From the NCBI GenBank assembly GCA_902799855.1, contig CADCCA010000029.1, positions 1-17,924 of the forward strand: a stretch of 17,924 bases of DNA, in the 5' to 3' direction. Origin of the DNA: an uncultured Erysipelotrichaceae bacterium. Lineage in GTDB: Bacteria; Bacillota_I; Bacilli_A; RFN20; CAG-826. This document shows, piece after piece, positions 2,346-11,478 of the stretch (position 1 is the first letter of the stretch; every line of letters starts with the position of its first letter). Position numbers and translations under genes: made by a program. A model generated the notes under the pieces. It did no database searches, was not told the origin of the DNA, and saw nothing but the letters and a program-made list of their open reading frames with translations.

Positions 2346-4370
2346 TTAGCCTTTAGTAATAGTTATGGTTGCGTACTCGCTTAAAAGTGAATCAACAGTG
2401 AAACTATAGCCAAGGGTTTTGCCATTATTGAGTTTTTTGTCTTTTACGAATTGATTGTTATATGTTGAGATATCAAAACTATCATCCATTTTGAATAAAT
2501 GACTACCAGTAAACTTTGTTTTTGTGTTGTATGTGGTTGTAGTTTTATTACGAATGAACTGCAAAAGATTATAGTCTTTATTAGTGCCTTGATAACTATT
2601 ATTCATCATTAAAGCAACTTTGTTACTAGCAGACGCCGGATCGGTAGTATTAGCAGGGGTGAATTTTGGATTGCCACTGCTATCAACAGAACCAGTATAA
2701 ACGTTCAGTCTAGCGTCCACGTGCCATAATCTAATGCCGTATTCAGTTGTGCCACTTGGATAAGCGCCGGCATATTGATATGTGGTATCGTGTTTATTTA
2801 AACCATTAGGGGTGTAATATTCTAATATTAAATATTCATCAAAAACAGAATTATAAGAATTCCAGTTTGGTGAAAGAATAATCATTTCTCCAGTCGCATC
2901 GAATGGTTTTAAATGAATAGTCATGCTTTCAGTTGGAACATAAGCTTTTCCCCAACCTAAAGCGAAAGAAGAAAACGGATCATGACCACCGACATTTTGA
3001 TCTTGCATGGAGAAGCCACCCGCTGGGAGATAAGTGCCAGTGTAATCATAATAATCATCTAAACCAAACATATGACCCATTTCATGAATGAATGTATGGC
3101 TATCAATTAGGGCGTGGTTTGTATCACCACTATGGTAATTTGATAAACCAGTATGGTTGGTGACAATATTGCTTCCATACATGAAGTCATAACTGGCCCA
3201 GAAGAAGGCATTAGCGCCTGGATTGAATCTGTTATTAGCAGATGTATCTTGGACCCAATAACAATACGCCCAAAGGTTCTTTTTGTTATTATTCATGGCA
3301 CTATAATCAGGGGCACCATAAATGAGCATAACACCATCAAGATAACCATTACCATCTTCGTCATAATCACGACGTTTTTCTGTGGTGTGATTATCAAAAT
3401 ACCACTTGGTGGCTTTCACTACTAAATCAACAGTGTTAGACAAACTGCTTTCAGCAGCATATGTATTATAAGAAGCGTTTTCTGAATACCATTCACTGAC
3501 AGTGCCTGTAAGAGTTAACTTACCATGGCTTTCTTCTTCATAATATGTTTTAACACTTCTCCAACCGACTTCTTCGTTAGTACCGAAATAAGCTTTTCTA
3601 ATGTCTTCTCTCACGATGTCTTTATTTTCGACTGCGATGAAGGTGTTGGAATCGTTAAACCACACTGGGATAACTAATATTTTAGCGGAACCCGTAGATG
3701 GAGTAACGGAGGTGCTATATAAGTAATTAGCGTTGTAGTCTTTGTATGTACGTCCCGCGTAAATTGGCTCAATTGGGTTAGTTGGCATCTGACTTGATGA
3801 ACTACTACTTGAGGAACTAGATTGGCTAGAGGAACTGCTTGAAGAAGAACTGCTGGCCGCACTACTTGAGGTAGTACTACTAGAGGATGAACTACTAGAA
3901 GATGAACTTGATTCACTACTAGAGGAGCTTGAAGAGCTACTAGATGAACTGGAGCTACTTGAGGAACTCGAAGAGCTTGATTCGCTGCTGCTTGAGCTGG
4001 AAGAACTACTGCTAGAAGATGAGCTTGAACTTGAGCTAGATGAGCTACTACTAGAAGATGAACTTGAGCTTGAGTTAGATGAACTAGATTCGCTAGAAGA
4101 ACTTGAACTAGAAGCACTGCTTGAGGAGCTTGATTCACTACTGGAGGAACCAATAGAAGAACTTGAAGATTCACTACTACTCGATGCTTCGCTTGATGAA
4201 CTAAATTCACTACTAGAAGAAGACTCTTCTGATGATGAATCATCTAAAGATGAAAACTCACTGCTAGAGGATTGTTCTTGACTAGAACGACCAAAAAGAG
4301 AGATTTCACAACCTGTTAAAGCAAATATAGCGGAGATAAGTAATAATGTTGTTCCTAATTTTCTTTTCAT
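2346..4370 (-). CDS. M6-family metalloprotease lipoprotein with a poly-serine linker (paralog 2)
   Basis: This is a 674-aa lipoprotein. The signal peptide ends in LTGC (Cys 21). Residues about 29-194 are almost only Ser with scattered Glu, Asp, Phe and Ala, forming a spacer that would hold the enzyme away from the membrane and through the cell wall. The catalytic domain follows: 'AKILVIPVWF', acidic loop DYDEDGNGYLDG, and zinc site HEMGH at 429-433 with G436 and D439, then YYDY. Start: AAAAGGGG lies shortly before the ATG, and a promoter-like TTGACT-16-TAAAAT lies upstream. It is divergent from the SDR gene at 4474 and precedes paralog 1. The domain matches paralog 1 along its whole length. 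It is probably a surface protease; the substrate is unknown. Confidence 0.9.
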   Translation of the reverse strand: MKRKLGTTLLLISAIFALTGCEISLFGRSSQEQSSSSEFSSLDDSSSEESSSSSEFSSSSEASSSSESSSSSIGSSSSESSSSSSASSSSSSSESSSSNSSSSSSSSSSSSSSSSSSSSSSSSSSSSSSESSSSSSSSSSSSSSSSSSSSSSESSSSSSSSSSSSTTSSSAASSSSSSSSSSQSSSSSSSSSSQMPTNPIEPIYAGRTYKDYNANYLYSTSVTPSTGSAKILVIPVWFNDSNTFIAVENKDIVREDIRKAYFGTNEEVGWRSVKTYYEEESHGKLTLTGTVSEWYSENASYNTYAAESSLSNTVDLVVKATKWYFDNHTTEKRRDYDEDGNGYLDGVMLIYGAPDYSAMNNNKKNLWAYCYWVQDTSANNRFNPGANAFFWASYDFMYGSNIVTNHTGLSNYHSGDTNHALIDSHTFIHEMGHMFGLDDYYDYTGTYLPAGGFSMQDQNVGGHDPFSSFALGWGKAYVPTESMTIHLKPFDATGEMIILSPNWNSYNSVFDEYLILEYYTPNGLNKHDTTYQYAGAYPSGTTEYGIRLWHVDARLNVYTGSVDSSGNPKFTPANTTDPASASNKVALMMNNSYQGTNKDYNLLQFIRNKTTTTYNTKTKFTGSHLFKMDDSFDISTYNNQFVKDKKLNNGKTLGYSFTVDSLLSEYATITITKG
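3523..3609 (-). repeat. Near-identical block shared by the two M6 genes (copy 2)
   Basis: Matches 1896-1982 with three differences in 87 bases; see that entry. Confidence 0.85.
3789..4285 (-). repeat. Low-complexity serine-codon tract
   Basis: About 165 codons are nearly all Ser (mixed AGT, AGC, TCA, TCT, TCC) interrupted by Glu. Because the codons are mixed, the DNA is degenerate and not a perfect minisatellite. Long alternative open frames here are by-products of the repeat. Such tracts commonly vary in length by slippage or recombination. Confidence 0.85.
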
Positions 4371-6949: not shown

Positions 6950-6980
6950 GTAAAAATAAAACCCGTTTTTCACGGGGTTT
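6950..6980 (-). terminator. Intrinsic terminator of the sigma-serpin operon
   Basis: AAACCC...GGGTTT with an inner GT/AC pair, one bulged C and loop GAAAA, followed on the minus strand by TTTTATTTTT. It lies about 20 nt after the serpin stop codon. Confidence 0.8.
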
Positions 6981-7000: not shown

Positions 7001-8347
7001 TTATCTTGGATCATTAACTTTGTTAACGAATAATGGGAAGTCATCCAGTAACGAAATAGCGTAGAATGGACGATTAACTTCAATTAAAAGCGGATCCTTT
7101 GTATCTGGCATAGAAGATGAACCCGATCCAATCGCGGTTATTGTTTCACCAAAGACACCTTTTTCACAAAATTCAAAGTCGGATGTTTGAAGGGCTTTAA
7201 TATAGAAACCCGCATCGTCTGTTCTTAAAGCATTTTCATTCACTAGTAGATTTGTATAAAGCTTTTCTTGACCAGTAAATTTTTTGCTAATTGATGGAGT
7301 GATATCAAATGAATCGGTGTTCAAATGGAAATAAGGAACATAACCATAGATGTTACGAGATGTCTTGGAACTAATGAAATTAGTATATGCTTCATTAACG
7401 GATATTGATTCTAAAGAAACACCTTCTCTTGGAAGAATTATTTGTAAGCTAGTGCCATTGATTCTGAAGGCAAAGGTTTGATATTGTTCGTTTTCAAAAT
7501 ATGTTAGATGCTGCATAGGCCAATTTATAGAACCAAGCGTGGCAGTATCAATTGAGACTTTCTTGTCGCCAATATAGAAATCATTCTTTTTAGTTTCGAA
7601 AACAGATAAGTCCATAAACTTTAAAGCACCGTAGGTGACAACACCTTGTCCATCAGGTAATTCAACCTTAGGGACCGGAATAGTAAGACCGACAGACTTT
7701 TTAAAATATTGTTGTGCTTGTTGGACGTAATTATCTGCGGTCGCTCTACTTGTGGCAATATATGAATCTTCTACAGCCTTTGCTTTGTTTTCATCAAATG
7801 GGAATTTATTACCAACTTGTTGATGGAGAATACCGCTTTTGAAATCGATAAGACGGGTACCATCGTTGTCCCAATACCAGTTCATGCTTTCAAGAAGGGC
7901 TTTTGTATCCGCTTTAGCATCTACTAGACCATAAGCATCAAGATCAAAGCCATCAGAAACGGCGATTAATCCAGAGACCGCAAGCAAGAAAGAAGCTGGC
8001 GAAAGAACAAAGTTCTTATTATCTGAATCAGCAAAATATGAATCAAGCGACATCAAAGATTTAGGAGATGTACGCTTAATCCAGTCTCTGTCTAATGACA
8101 CCATGCCGTTATGCTTTGGCGCAGCAACGGGACTAACTGTAAAAGGCGTAATAGAATTAGGTGTGTTTAAAGCGACATTTGGAACGATAATTGCTAAAGC
8201 AATGGATGTAGCTAAAACACCTGCTCCGATTGGCATAGCAATTTTGAGCCAACGTGGGAATGTTGATTTTTTCTTTGGATATGGATTTGGCACATTTTCT
8301 TCGAATACTTCATCGATATGCTTTTTCATCTGTTTTTCAAATTTCAT
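7001..8347 (-). CDS. Membrane-anchored serpin, putative ECF anti-sigma/sensor protein
   Basis: This 448-aa protein has a charged N-terminal cytoplasmic segment (1-33), one transmembrane helix (about 34-57) and an extracellular serpin-like domain. Serpin landmarks appear in order: 'NFVLSPASFLLAVSGL' at 112-127 (helix B), 'YGALKFMDLSVF' at 239-250 with the following strand, 'TSLQIILPREG' at 299-309, 'VPYFHLNTDSFDI' at 337-349, hinge 'EKG' at 395-397, and C-terminal 'NRPFYAISLLDDFPLFVNKVNDP' motif residues at 425-447. The reactive loop spans about 398-423. The hinge residues at P12-P9 are G-E-T-I and not the small Ala-rich pattern of strong inhibitors. The start overlaps the sigma gene stop (ATGA), with AAAGGA 8 nt upstream. 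By analogy with other ECF operons the cytoplasmic tail would bind the sigma factor. The serpin fold is seen from motifs; the anti-sigma role is inferred. Confidence 0.8.
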   Translation of the reverse strand: MKFEKQMKKHIDEVFEENVPNPYPKKKSTFPRWLKIAMPIGAGVLATSIALAIIVPNVALNTPNSITPFTVSPVAAPKHNGMVSLDRDWIKRTSPKSLMSLDSYFADSDNKNFVLSPASFLLAVSGLIAVSDGFDLDAYGLVDAKADTKALLESMNWYWDNDGTRLIDFKSGILHQQVGNKFPFDENKAKAVEDSYIATSRATADNYVQQAQQYFKKSVGLTIPVPKVELPDGQGVVTYGALKFMDLSVFETKKNDFYIGDKKVSIDTATLGSINWPMQHLTYFENEQYQTFAFRINGTSLQIILPREGVSLESISVNEAYTNFISSKTSRNIYGYVPYFHLNTDSFDITPSISKKFTGQEKLYTNLLVNENALRTDDAGFYIKALQTSDFEFCEKGVFGETITAIGSGSSSMPDTKDPLLIEVNRPFYAISLLDDFPLFVNKVNDPR

Positions 8348-8844
8348 AAAGCGAGTCCTTTCTTTAATTTCTCTTTCGCACCGGCATATAGCCTTCTAGC
8401 GGTTGATTCAGGAATGCCTGTTTCTTCCGTGATCTCAGGCCATGTGTAAGAGAAATAAATCTTGTAATAAACAACGATTGTTTCTTTGTTGGTAAGGAGA
8501 GGCTCGATAAGTGAGAGGAAATCGTTCGACCTATCTTCGTCCCCGTAGATTTCTTCTAGAACGTCACTACAAGGAATTGGACGATTTTTCTTTAGAAAAT
8601 CAAGGGCTTGATTTCTCGCAATTGTCACTAGGTAGGCTTTTAAGTTGCTAGGATCTGATATTTGTTTCCTACGTTCAATTGCTTTCAAAAAGGAATCGCT
8701 TAGAATGTCATCGATGTCATTTTTTAAAGAGACATAACTAGCGATGACAAAAAACATCAAGTTCTTATATTCTAAGTAAACTTTTTCTACCGCTGATTGT
8801 TCACCAGCGATAAAACCTAAAACAGTTTTTTTTGAAATGCTCAT
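8344..8844 (-). CDS. ECF-type RNA polymerase sigma factor
   Basis: The 166-aa size fits extracytoplasmic-function sigma factors, with only regions 2 and 4. Region 2 is seen in 'NDIDDILSDSFLKAIE' and 'LKAYLVTIARNQALDFLKK' (core binding and -10 recognition). Region 4 is seen in 'TWPEITEETGIPESTARRLYAGAKEKLKK' at the C-terminus, a helix-turn-helix that would contact the -35 box. It should direct RNA polymerase to a small regulon in response to an envelope signal. It overlaps the membrane serpin gene by 4 nt, the usual arrangement of a sigma factor with its anti-sigma partner. A GAGAGG precedes the ATG by about five bases. An inverted repeat ACGAT-ACTTCA-ATCGT sits at 8866-8881 upstream. Confidence 0.9.
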   Translation of the reverse strand: MSISKKTVLGFIAGEQSAVEKVYLEYKNLMFFVIASYVSLKNDIDDILSDSFLKAIERRKQISDPSNLKAYLVTIARNQALDFLKKNRPIPCSDVLEEIYGDEDRSNDFLSLIEPLLTNKETIVVYYKIYFSYTWPEITEETGIPESTARRLYAGAKEKLKKGLAL

Positions 8845-8948
8845 CCTAGCCTCTCACTATATATAACGATTGAAGTATCGTAATCTGCTCACAATTTTAC
8901 CATTTTTATTTTCAATATTAAATAACGCATACACGCATCGCTTATTTT

Positions 8949-8980: not shown

Positions 8981-9604
8981 TTATTCTGCTTCTTGCGCTT
9001 TTTTTCTCTCTTCTTTTCTTTTTTGCAGTTCGATGTTGTTGTTATAGATTCTCACCAATCTTGGAAGATTGTATTTCAAAATGAAGGCTGGAAGAACAAT
9101 TAATATAGCGTTTACTATCGCTACTGGAAGAGCGATTGTTAACCAGAGGTTAGATTGACCAGTATACATTCGCCAATCTGCTAATAAGATAAGGAAAGAT
9201 GCAGGAACACTATAGAAGTGAATTGCAACGCCATATCTAGCTTCTAAGATGAATCTAGCGATATATTCGTTATCAAATGGATTAGCGACTTTGTTTTTAT
9301 GGAAGCCAGTGAAACTTCCTAATTCTGGAATAAAGTCTTTCCATTTTTGGACTCTTAAGAAGGAATAGAACTTCAGTTCTTTTTCTCCAGTATGAAATAT
9401 ACCCTTATCTTTTTGGAACCACTTTTCTGGCATCTTTCTAATGACTATGGCCACAATAGCGTCCACGATGACCGCTAAAACGGTAAAGGCCACAGTAAAG
9501 ATAATGTATAACCACCACTTATCATGATATAAAGGGTTAAAGAAGATATTTAAAGTGGCGGTAATAATCATGCCAAGAGCAATAACAATTAGATATAAAA
9601 CCAT
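8981..9604 (-). CDS. CrtO-like (glycosyl-diaponeurosporenoate acyltransferase family) membrane protein
   Basis: This 207-aa protein has two N-terminal hydrophobic segments (2-22 and about 32-55), a polar middle region with 'FYSFLRVQKWKDFIPELGSF' at residues 79-98, two C-terminal hydrophobic segments, and 'KYNLPRLVRIYNN' at 177-189. The WKD-x-x-P motif and the Asn-Pro-Arg-rich end are typical of the family of Staphylococcus CrtO, which acylates the sugar of a glycosylated carotenoid acid in staphyloxanthin synthesis. No other carotenoid gene is present in the window, so the acceptor here may be another glycolipid. Its start overlaps the stop of the GT8-PlsC gene by one base (TAATG), with AGAGGAG about five bases upstream, so the two are translationally coupled and probably act in one pathway. 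Confidence 0.7.
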   Translation of the reverse strand: MVLYLIVIALGMIITATLNIFFNPLYHDKWWLYIIFTVAFTVLAVIVDAIVAIVIRKMPEKWFQKDKGIFHTGEKELKFYSFLRVQKWKDFIPELGSFTGFHKNKVANPFDNEYIARFILEARYGVAIHFYSVPASFLILLADWRMYTGQSNLWLTIALPVAIVNAILIVLPAFILKYNLPRLVRIYNNNIELQKRKEERKKAQEAE

Positions 9605-11424
9605 TATTTCTCCTCTGGTAGATAAGTTAGAGGTATACCATATACCTTTTCATAGATTTCTTTACATTGTCTTTCGTTTTCCTTAAGCATATAGGCGACG
9701 TTTTCTTGTTGAGTTAATGCTTCATCAGGATAAATTGGTTTTAAGATATGTAAAGTATAGGCTTGGATATAGGCACCTGTATCATCGGTTTTATCAGTAT
9801 CACGCATGGTGATAAAGGTTGGAATAACTGGGACGTTATTCTTACTAGCGAAGATGAACGCTCCTTGTTTTAAAGGCTTTGGTTTACGATAATTCCACCA
9901 CATTGATTGTTCTGGATAAATGAGGATGAAATTGCCTTTTTTAAGGATGACGTTAATAGATTTATATAAATCTCTTAAAACAGTTGGGTTTGTCGCTAAT
10001 GGAAGGGTATTACAGTTTCTTAAGAAATAGCCGTATAATCCAGGCATTGTGTAATTACCTTCTCTAATGATTTTGAAGAGTTTTTTACATCTAGCATATT
10101 TTTTGACGGCTAAATGGATTGGGACACTATCAAAAGGCGAGAAGTGATTAGCGGTAATAATTGCCCCACTTTTCACGCTTTTAAGGTTTTCAATTCCTTC
10201 ATAGCCATCAATGACAATGTGACCTTTTTTGATTTGATGTTTGAAATAATAATTGGAATAGTAATTGGCCCACATGGTTTTGATTTTGCTGGACCATTTC
10301 TTTCTTAAATAGTCGACATCTCCTGGCATTAAGCGACGGAATGGCGGATCGTTTTCGACATCAACATCAAATCTACGCGCTTTTTCAAGTTCAGCGATTT
10401 TATCAACGATAGCTTGTCTTTCTTTGGTGAGTTTAGGCACGTTAACTTCATCTTGTCTAATTCTTTGTTCGATGGTTTGATAACGAGATTTCTTTGGTTT
10501 TCCATGAATTCTATCGTGATATTCTTGAGCCTTAGATGCTTCTAAATTACAGAAAGCTTTCACTCCATCCACACCTTTTAAGATGTTATCGATGACTTCT
10601 TGAGGAATGGCATCTCTATTCTTTAAGATTTGTTCTTTAACACCTGCTTCTTCAGCGTAGTTAAAGAAATATTCCTCATACATCACATCTTTTAAGTTCC
10701 AAGGTTTGAACATTAAGTTATAGTGAACAAGTAATGGTTTATCAACCTTTTCCCCTAATGGCATGACGTTCCAACGGGAATCGATTAAAGTGACTTTGTT
10801 CTTACAAAGATAATTAAGAACGTCTTGATCTTGGGCCACTTTGAAAGTGACTTTCTTAATTAAATTAATAAAACGTCTTTCTAAGTTATATTCTCTTAAT
10901 TTCTTTAAGTTCATTAGGAGGACACCAGCGTTAAAGTACTTGCTTGGATCCATTTCAATGACCTTACTAACATAGTTACTGAATTCAGAGAATAACTGAA
11001 CAGACGCATCGGGAATCGCACCGACGAGATTATCACCTAAATCGGTGAAATATAGTTTAGCGACATCATCATTTAAAACGATATCACTATCGAGATATAA
11101 GCCCTTACTTAATGTAGGGAATATATTTGGAATAAATAAACGATAATAAGTTGTGATTGTGTAATAATCACGAACGTCTAATTTAACGGAAAGATTGTTA
11201 ACTTTGACACTGACATTGAAGAAAGAGATAAAAATCTTTTCGTTATCTTGGTATTTGCGGATGATTCTCTTGCTTTCAAGAGATAAACCGTCATGAAGAA
11301 TAATTAAACGATATTTATAATCATTAGAAGAATGATGCACGATACTAGCGATTGTGGTTGATAAGAATGGGATATAGTTATCGTCAACCGTGAAGAATAA
11401 GTGCACGACTTTTTTCCTGACCAT
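9604..11424 (-). CDS. Bifunctional GT8 glycosyltransferase-PlsC acyltransferase fusion
   Basis: The start chosen is the ATG at 11424 (606 aa), because GGAGG lies six bases upstream; 18 further codons upstream overlap the promoter region. Residues 1-260 are a family 8 glycosyltransferase: 'VHLFFTVDDNYIPFLSTTIASI' start, metal-binding DSD at 112-114, 'FNAGVLLMNL' at 164-173, 'DQDVLN' at 199-204 and 'HYNLMFKPW' at 234-242. A charged linker (about 260-400) joins it to a 1-acylglycerol-phosphate acyltransferase domain: 'NHFSPFD' (N426 H427 to D432) and 'YPEQSMWW' at 503-510. The predicted product is a glycosylated and acylated lipid made at the membrane from a nucleotide sugar and an acyl donor. 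It is coupled to the CrtO-like gene. Domain identities are confident; substrate is unknown. Confidence 0.88.
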   Translation of the reverse strand: MVRKKVVHLFFTVDDNYIPFLSTTIASIVHHSSNDYKYRLIILHDGLSLESKRIIRKYQDNEKIFISFFNVSVKVNNLSVKLDVRDYYTITTYYRLFIPNIFPTLSKGLYLDSDIVLNDDVAKLYFTDLGDNLVGAIPDASVQLFSEFSNYVSKVIEMDPSKYFNAGVLLMNLKKLREYNLERRFINLIKKVTFKVAQDQDVLNYLCKNKVTLIDSRWNVMPLGEKVDKPLLVHYNLMFKPWNLKDVMYEEYFFNYAEEAGVKEQILKNRDAIPQEVIDNILKGVDGVKAFCNLEASKAQEYHDRIHGKPKKSRYQTIEQRIRQDEVNVPKLTKERQAIVDKIAELEKARRFDVDVENDPPFRRLMPGDVDYLRKKWSSKIKTMWANYYSNYYFKHQIKKGHIVIDGYEGIENLKSVKSGAIITANHFSPFDSVPIHLAVKKYARCKKLFKIIREGNYTMPGLYGYFLRNCNTLPLATNPTVLRDLYKSINVILKKGNFILIYPEQSMWWNYRKPKPLKQGAFIFASKNNVPVIPTFITMRDTDKTDDTGAYIQAYTLHILKPIYPDEALTQQENVAYMLKENERQCKEIYEKVYGIPLTYLPEEK

Positions 11425-11450
11425 AAGTAACCTCCTTCTAGGCCCAAACA

Positions 11451-11478
11451 ATGATAACAAAAAAAGATTTAAAAGCAA
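11451..11478 (-). promoter_or_regulatory. Probable promoter of the GT8-PlsC operon
   Basis: TTGCTT (11473-11478), a 16-bp spacer and TATCAT (11451-11456) on the minus strand, about 27 bp upstream of the ATG. The -35 overlaps one arm of a distant inverted repeat (11477-11486 with 11521-11530). Confidence 0.5.

Follow-up and report, generated by a model that had tools for sequence, protein, structure and literature searches.

The known domain families of anti-sigma factors include the zinc-finger and RsgI types represented in Pfam, and in the RsgI-type anti-sigma factors of Clostridium thermocellum an inhibitory N-terminus is combined with exchangeable outer sensor domains that bind polysaccharides. 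In the SigV–RsiV system of Bacillus subtilis, as described in passages of PMC6066255, the trigger is the binding of lysozyme, and the sigma factor is released by signal peptidase together with the site-2 protease RasP. As for the serpins, passages of PMC8233489 class some of the prokaryotic members as membrane anchored, and the available text of that paper contains no instance of the word “sigma”; likewise, that of the ECF factor review PMC8103513 contains none of “serpin”, and PMC10059941, in an excerpt, names a serpin and an anti-sigma factor with no relation between them. No serpin anti-sigma factor is described in the partly available literature covered here on serpins with sigma or anti-sigma factors, on prokaryotic serpins and on ECF classification, in which subscription papers are under-represented.

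The locus considered here lies in a 17,924-nt stretch of DNA (the window) from an uncultured Erysipelotrichaceae bacterium, on whose minus strand a 166-aa ECF sigma factor gene (8344..8844; Pfam Sigma70_r2, E 6e-11; TIGR02937 at 61.1 bits, above the cut-off of 42.9) is followed by a gene for a 448-aa protein (7001..8347), which its sequence, predicted fold and relatives mark as a putative anti-sigma factor with a serpin outer domain. The stop codon of the former and the start codon of the latter overlap in the 4 nt ATGA (8344..8347, minus strand), an arrangement recurring in 32 of the 67 ECF–serpin pairs assembled below (a gap of −4 in our script's count). A terminator-like hairpin is found 3′ of the pair (6962..6976, minus strand), and a second one, at 8977-8956, ends the gene preceding the sigma gene; hence, the sigma and serpin genes look like a two-gene unit (the whole window has five terminator-like hairpins against 1.5 expected). 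An earlier sequence-only reading of this DNA had proposed just such an overlapping ECF gene, a downstream terminator shared by the pair, and a partner made of a charged segment, one helix and a serpin-like domain; our analysis bears out each of these, the last by sequence and predicted fold.

Upstream of the sigma gene and on the same strand, we noted by eye, in addition to what the earlier reading had listed, an ECF-type promoter-like motif (8863..8890; GAGCAG, 16 nt, CGTTAT), which is kept in close relatives and which we take to resemble ECF promoters. Of 12 upstream stretches inspected visually, 11 carry the pattern RRRCAR, 14 nt, AT, YGTYAY with a constant 16-nt spacer (some of these stretches are near-copies of one another), and that of L254 departs from it. 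The motif has a single exact match in the window, and this match is by itself not significant, the pattern being loose (with one mismatch tolerated, 44 of 200 shuffled sequences reach the same number of matches). The motif suggests that the sigma factor might autoregulate its own operon.

The remainder of the neighborhood includes two adjacent genes whose products resemble M6 (immune inhibitor A) peptidases and start like lipoproteins (635-2305 and 2346-4370, both on the minus strand), that of the second gene having a very long serine-rich linker; another M6-like gene occurs close to the serpin in L005. The pair is also flanked by a ThrE exporter and by a minus-strand region (8981-11478) coding for a CrtO-like acyltransferase and a GT8/acyltransferase fusion. 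A GT8 gene is present near the ECF–serpin pair in 6 of the 22 loci of our contig scan, 4 of which also have a CrtO-like gene; we claim no functional link for these genes.

The putative anti-sigma factor begins with a cytoplasmic segment or “stub” (residues 1-35; 8243..8347, minus strand), with the consensus MxFEKxMKKH...VPNPY, which is conserved among the membrane forms in A1, has residues 2-18 in a helix in the predicted structure, and tracks the family of the adjacent sigma factor, making it the putative sigma-binding region. It is succeeded by a transmembrane helix at about residues 36-57 (8177..8242, minus strand), read from the sequence as a hydrophobic stretch and present at the same position in the relative L191, by a linker, and by the C-terminal domain (residues 84-448; 7004..8098, minus strand). 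The structure model and a structural search, which are the checks that had been envisaged for the serpin assignment, agree that the predicted fold of this product is plainly that of a serpin. The sequence itself stays below the gathering cut-off of the Pfam serpin model PF00079 (22.6 versus 27 bits), which its relative P0004 exceeds with 34.4 bits; we place the protein in the serpin superfamily on the strength of its predicted fold and its relatives, its own Pfam score being sub-threshold. A single-sequence PDB search returned three chance-level matches only, aminotransferases included, and it was the fold and profile searches that resolved the serpin identity. At E values up to 1, the Pfam matches of the window protein comprise the serpin and a weak aminotransferase hit only, and none to the zinc-finger, RsgI or RsiV/DUF4179 types, models that a 35-residue segment can escape. 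Among the 12 best structural matches, 9 carry titles of cleaved serpins, and the AlphaFold model shows a strand at hinge residues 397-403, although such a model cannot distinguish the real state of a serpin. The few relatives shown bear the public names “serpin family protein”, “serine protease inhibitor” and “hypothetical protein”.

A scan of genome contigs recovered 22 loci, titled Bacilli, Bacillales, Erysipelotrichaceae or Firmicutes, with several coming from the rumen or another ruminant stomach. In 14 of these the serpin has the stub and helix (N-termini judged by reading), each with an overlapping ECF gene directly upstream; 5 are without an ECF match, of which 4 show lipoprotein-like starts and 1 an unclear start; and 3 are cut by contig ends. 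We then extended the comparison to 279 genomes of one order, in which a PF00079 search found a serpin in at least 116 genomes. The resulting sample consists of 145 serpin places among the matches listed (30 + 115 loci), five short fragments (one each in G186, G139, G164, G015 and G102) being left out. An ECF gene stands directly upstream in 67 of the 145 places according to a home-made ECF profile (weakest E 5.6e-18), and all 67, like the window's own sigma factor, match both PF04542 (Sigma70_r2) and the NCBIfam model TIGR02937 at E <=0.001. Such pairs are present in at least 63 of the 279 genomes, the pair counts being lower bounds as the Pfam model misses divergent members, for instance the window's own kind in G001. 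Sixteen genomes of the order have both ECF-linked and ECF-free serpins. In view of this recurrence (67/145) we reject a chance gene neighbor as the explanation of the pair.

Beyond this order, a class-level sample, from which 20 regions with long frames were taken, allowed 23 loci to be examined; 4 of these, from genomes found in the class-level sample alone and hence taken to belong to other orders, have an ECF–serpin pair. Eight further loci from other orders (L235-L242) encode membrane-anchored serpins with no ECF neighbor within the regions read, indicating that a membrane anchor by itself does not require an ECF partner. A phylum-level sample of 392 genomes, 50 of them with serpins, was largely the same as the class sample, and neighbors were read within class Bacilli. 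Thus, the conservation of the pair in relatives, for which the earlier reading had proposed a survey, is upheld both in the order and in 4 of the class-level loci.

A straightforward alternative would be that the serpin is a membrane-anchored protective inhibitor that simply shares a transcript with the ECF sigma factor and is induced by it, the true anti-sigma factor being encoded elsewhere. The co-occurrence of both kinds of serpins in the above 16 genomes, the ECF-free ones mostly with lipoprotein-like starts and mostly retaining the canonical inhibitory hinge, is in keeping with such a role. However, the distribution of the stub speaks against it: by hydropathy, all 67 ECF-linked serpins have a stub of 35-56 residues ahead of the helix, whereas of the 78 ECF-free serpins 69 start with a signal peptide, a lipobox or a short anchor and 1 is unclear, the remaining 8 of the 145 places being excluded from the architecture comparison as truncated or short. 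In sum, the stub is present in 67/67 ECF-linked versus 0/69 classifiable other serpins. Start codons were taken as the one nearest the sigma stop for the ECF-linked proteins and as an early in-frame start for the others; the early choice favors longer stubs in ECF-free serpins, and the bias thus works against our claim.

A FastTree phylogeny of 144 serpin domains, thinned by similarity from 164 rows, points in the same direction. The ECF label changes 15 times on this tree, at least 12 of these on well-supported branches, a soft count in that some long branches meet and a change might be either a gain or a loss, and it suggests that the ECF–serpin pairing arose several times. The stub accompanies the ECF gene in 8/8 independent contrasts (p 0.0078; 116 rows). 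Moreover, three serpins nested within the large ECF clade that have no ECF neighbor (L105, L137 and L170) are also without a stub of >=30 residues; a fourth such member, L123, is at a locus cut by a contig end. Together with the finding, detailed below, that the stub goes with the sigma family even where the outer domain differs, this distribution leads us to reject the plain co-transcribed inhibitor, which we regard as very improbable.

The window's sigma factor has paralogs with 59-68% identity to it, whose partners display the same stub motif coupled to other outer domains. A profile of the stub alone retrieves L027 (4.7e-15), L043 (8.6e-8) and L042 (6.8e-5), with a range over five such proteins, inclusive of L254 and L255, of 4.7e-15 to 6.8e-5; there is one weak further match, L258, at 0.0017. 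The outer domains of L027 and L042 register as serpins neither with Pfam nor with our serpin profiles, and a Pfam search at E 0.001 leaves those of L027, L042 and L256, all paired with related sigmas, without a family; the outer part of L043 resembles that of L042 in a purely visual comparison. By contrast, the stub profile scores the distantly paired ECF–serpins at 0.47 or worse (the best shuffle gives 0.31), and it also misses L256, L257 and L260, whose outer domains are again different and whose sigmas are more distant. Since the profile finds the partners of paralogous sigmas and not the distant ECF–serpins, the stub goes with the sigma factor and not with the serpin, and the outer part can be exchanged, as expected of an anti-sigma domain joined to a sensor.

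Two of these partners, L254:593-2254 and L255:378-2021, lie next to paralogous ECF genes and are anti-sigma candidates whose outer domain is apparently a decayed serpin. L254 matches both the order-serpin profile (E 4e-23) and A1 (6.5e-7), and L255 matches only the second of these (9e-8). In the tree, L254 has as its sister L194, which begins like a lipoprotein. A single 500-aa frame, L261:157-1659 (plus strand), runs from an ECF sigma factor through a hydrophobic helix to an outer part, as if it were a natural sigma/anti-sigma fusion.

The layout of the locus is that of an ECF sigma factor with a membrane anti-sigma factor, namely an overlapping ECF gene immediately upstream and a product with a short N-terminal segment, one helix and an outer domain. 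In light of the stub's behavior, the reading of the 448-aa protein as an anti-sigma factor with a serpin as its exchangeable sensor is strongly supported and very probably right, with its stub predicted to bind the sigma factor.

How such a sensor might work can be approached through its reactive loop. The hinge spans residues 395-404 (EKGVFGETIT, P17-P8; 7136..7165, minus strand), with P positions assigned by alignment to the motif quoted in PMC8233489, where, in the portion available, the inhibitory consensus for P17-P9 is given as ExGTEAAAA. The corresponding EKGVFGETI of the window keeps the P17 Glu, the P15 Gly and a small P12, and departs from the inhibitory consensus with a Glu at P11. 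Across the ECF-linked serpins, P15 is Gly in 67/67, P10 is small in 59/67 and P8 is Thr or Ser in 58/67; in A1, P12 is Gly in 55/67 and P10 is Ser in 57/67. Alanine at P11 occurs in 14/67 ECF-linked serpins, 32 of the 67 having Lys there, versus 52 of 75 other serpins, a set that includes five truncated or short ones (L057, L102, L109, L123 and L126). Three of these five, L109, L123 and L126, show hinges of the ECF type, and their starts coincide with contig ends that cut off the neighboring gene. Judged by alignment, then, the hinge is compatible with loop insertion and differs from the inhibitory consensus, and given their P11 residue many ECF-linked serpins may not trap proteases. Because P15, P10 and P8 are conserved while the P11 Ala is mostly missing, we infer that loop insertion has been preserved and efficient protease trapping often lost, which would amount to a substrate-like sensor. 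Past the hinge, an exposed Gly/Ser-rich segment of the reactive loop (residues 404-416; 7100..7138, minus strand) is disordered in the model (pLDDT <50) and Ala/Gly/Ser-rich across relatives.

The same observations bear on two further alternatives. On the first, the serpin would be an anti-sigma sensor acting by the binding of a ligand or an uncleaved protease, rather than by loop cleavage. There are serpins that carry hormones, and one of the best structural matches of the window protein is corticosteroid-binding globulin, as a matter of fold similarity only. The deviation of P11 from the inhibitory consensus in most ECF-linked serpins would suit a binding mode, as would the precedent of RsiV, activated by its binding of lysozyme according to passages of PMC6066255. 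Yet the strong retention of the P15 Gly, P10 and P8 would be hard to explain were loop insertion irrelevant, and the model leaves the post-hinge loop exposed, with small residues abundant in it across relatives; accordingly weighed, sensing by binding seems to us rather unlikely. On the second, the serpin would be a metastable gauge of stress, with heat, misfolding or envelope damage driving it to a latent or polymerized state that releases the sigma factor with no protease involved. Serpins are metastable by nature and these hinges permit insertion, but such a gauge leaves the small-residue-rich post-hinge loop unexplained, and we consider it quite improbable.

Provided that the protein is an anti-sigma factor with a serpin sensor, loop cleavage by a protease, the one-shot signal suggested by the earlier reading, is its reasonably probable trigger. 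We propose that residues 1-35 would hold the ECF sigma factor at the membrane, with the reactive loop outside the cell presented as an exposed bait. A protease cutting or engaging this loop would cause it to insert into sheet A, the irreversible stressed-to-relaxed change of serpins. The altered or protease-bound anti-sigma factor might next be cleaved both within the flexible stalk and inside the membrane, by regulated intramembrane proteolysis through an M50 site-2 protease, and the freed sigma factor would switch on its own operon and further targets. In 54 family proteins, the stalk linking the membrane and the serpin varies from 19 to 83 residues (median 50), and this variability argues against a rigid mechanical transmission; by analogy with RsiV, proteolysis of the stalk followed by a site-2 protease would be a likelier relay than a rigid push. 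The site-2 protease family is found in 12/12 genomes searched and also in 14/14 control genomes, and being near universal its presence says little. Subtilases of the S8 family occur in only 6 of the 12 genomes, so no single endogenous protease family is obvious as the target. Taken as a whole, a serpin-sensor anti-sigma factor with a relay of loop cleavage and insertion is the best explanation, to which we give slightly better than even credence. The wider proposition, in which serpins have repeatedly been joined to ECF anti-sigma stubs to serve as protease tripwires, the irreversible cleavage of their loop by an extracellular protease of the host, a rival or the cell itself being converted into transcription, is in our estimation evenly balanced.

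If true, this would mean that the conformational switch of a serpin has been wired into transcription as a sensor that directly reports protease attack on the cell surface, and that the Bacilli possess a class of one-shot protease sensors deploying the switch for signaling and not inhibition. As the pair is common in one order of gut-type bacteria and several origins are suggested, it would constitute a general strategy. It may also help explain the abundance of serpins in these uncultured Bacilli, and its modular design lends itself to a protease biosensor.

When set beside the described systems, the locus resembles SigV–RsiV in having an ECF sigma factor with a single-pass membrane anti-sigma factor, here putative, whose outer part senses, or here would sense, an enzyme; unlike RsiV, the window protein has no RsiV-type domain detectable with Pfam at E up to 1. 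It would share the modular plan of the RsgI-type anti-sigma factors, the difference being that its outer domain is a serpin whereas those of RsgI bind polysaccharides. With the membrane-anchored and lipoprotein serpins of bacteria it has in common the same fold outside the cell, but the available text of PMC8233489 makes no link between those serpins and sigma factors. The ECF/anti-sigma pair is of a known kind, while the serpin sensor appears to be new.
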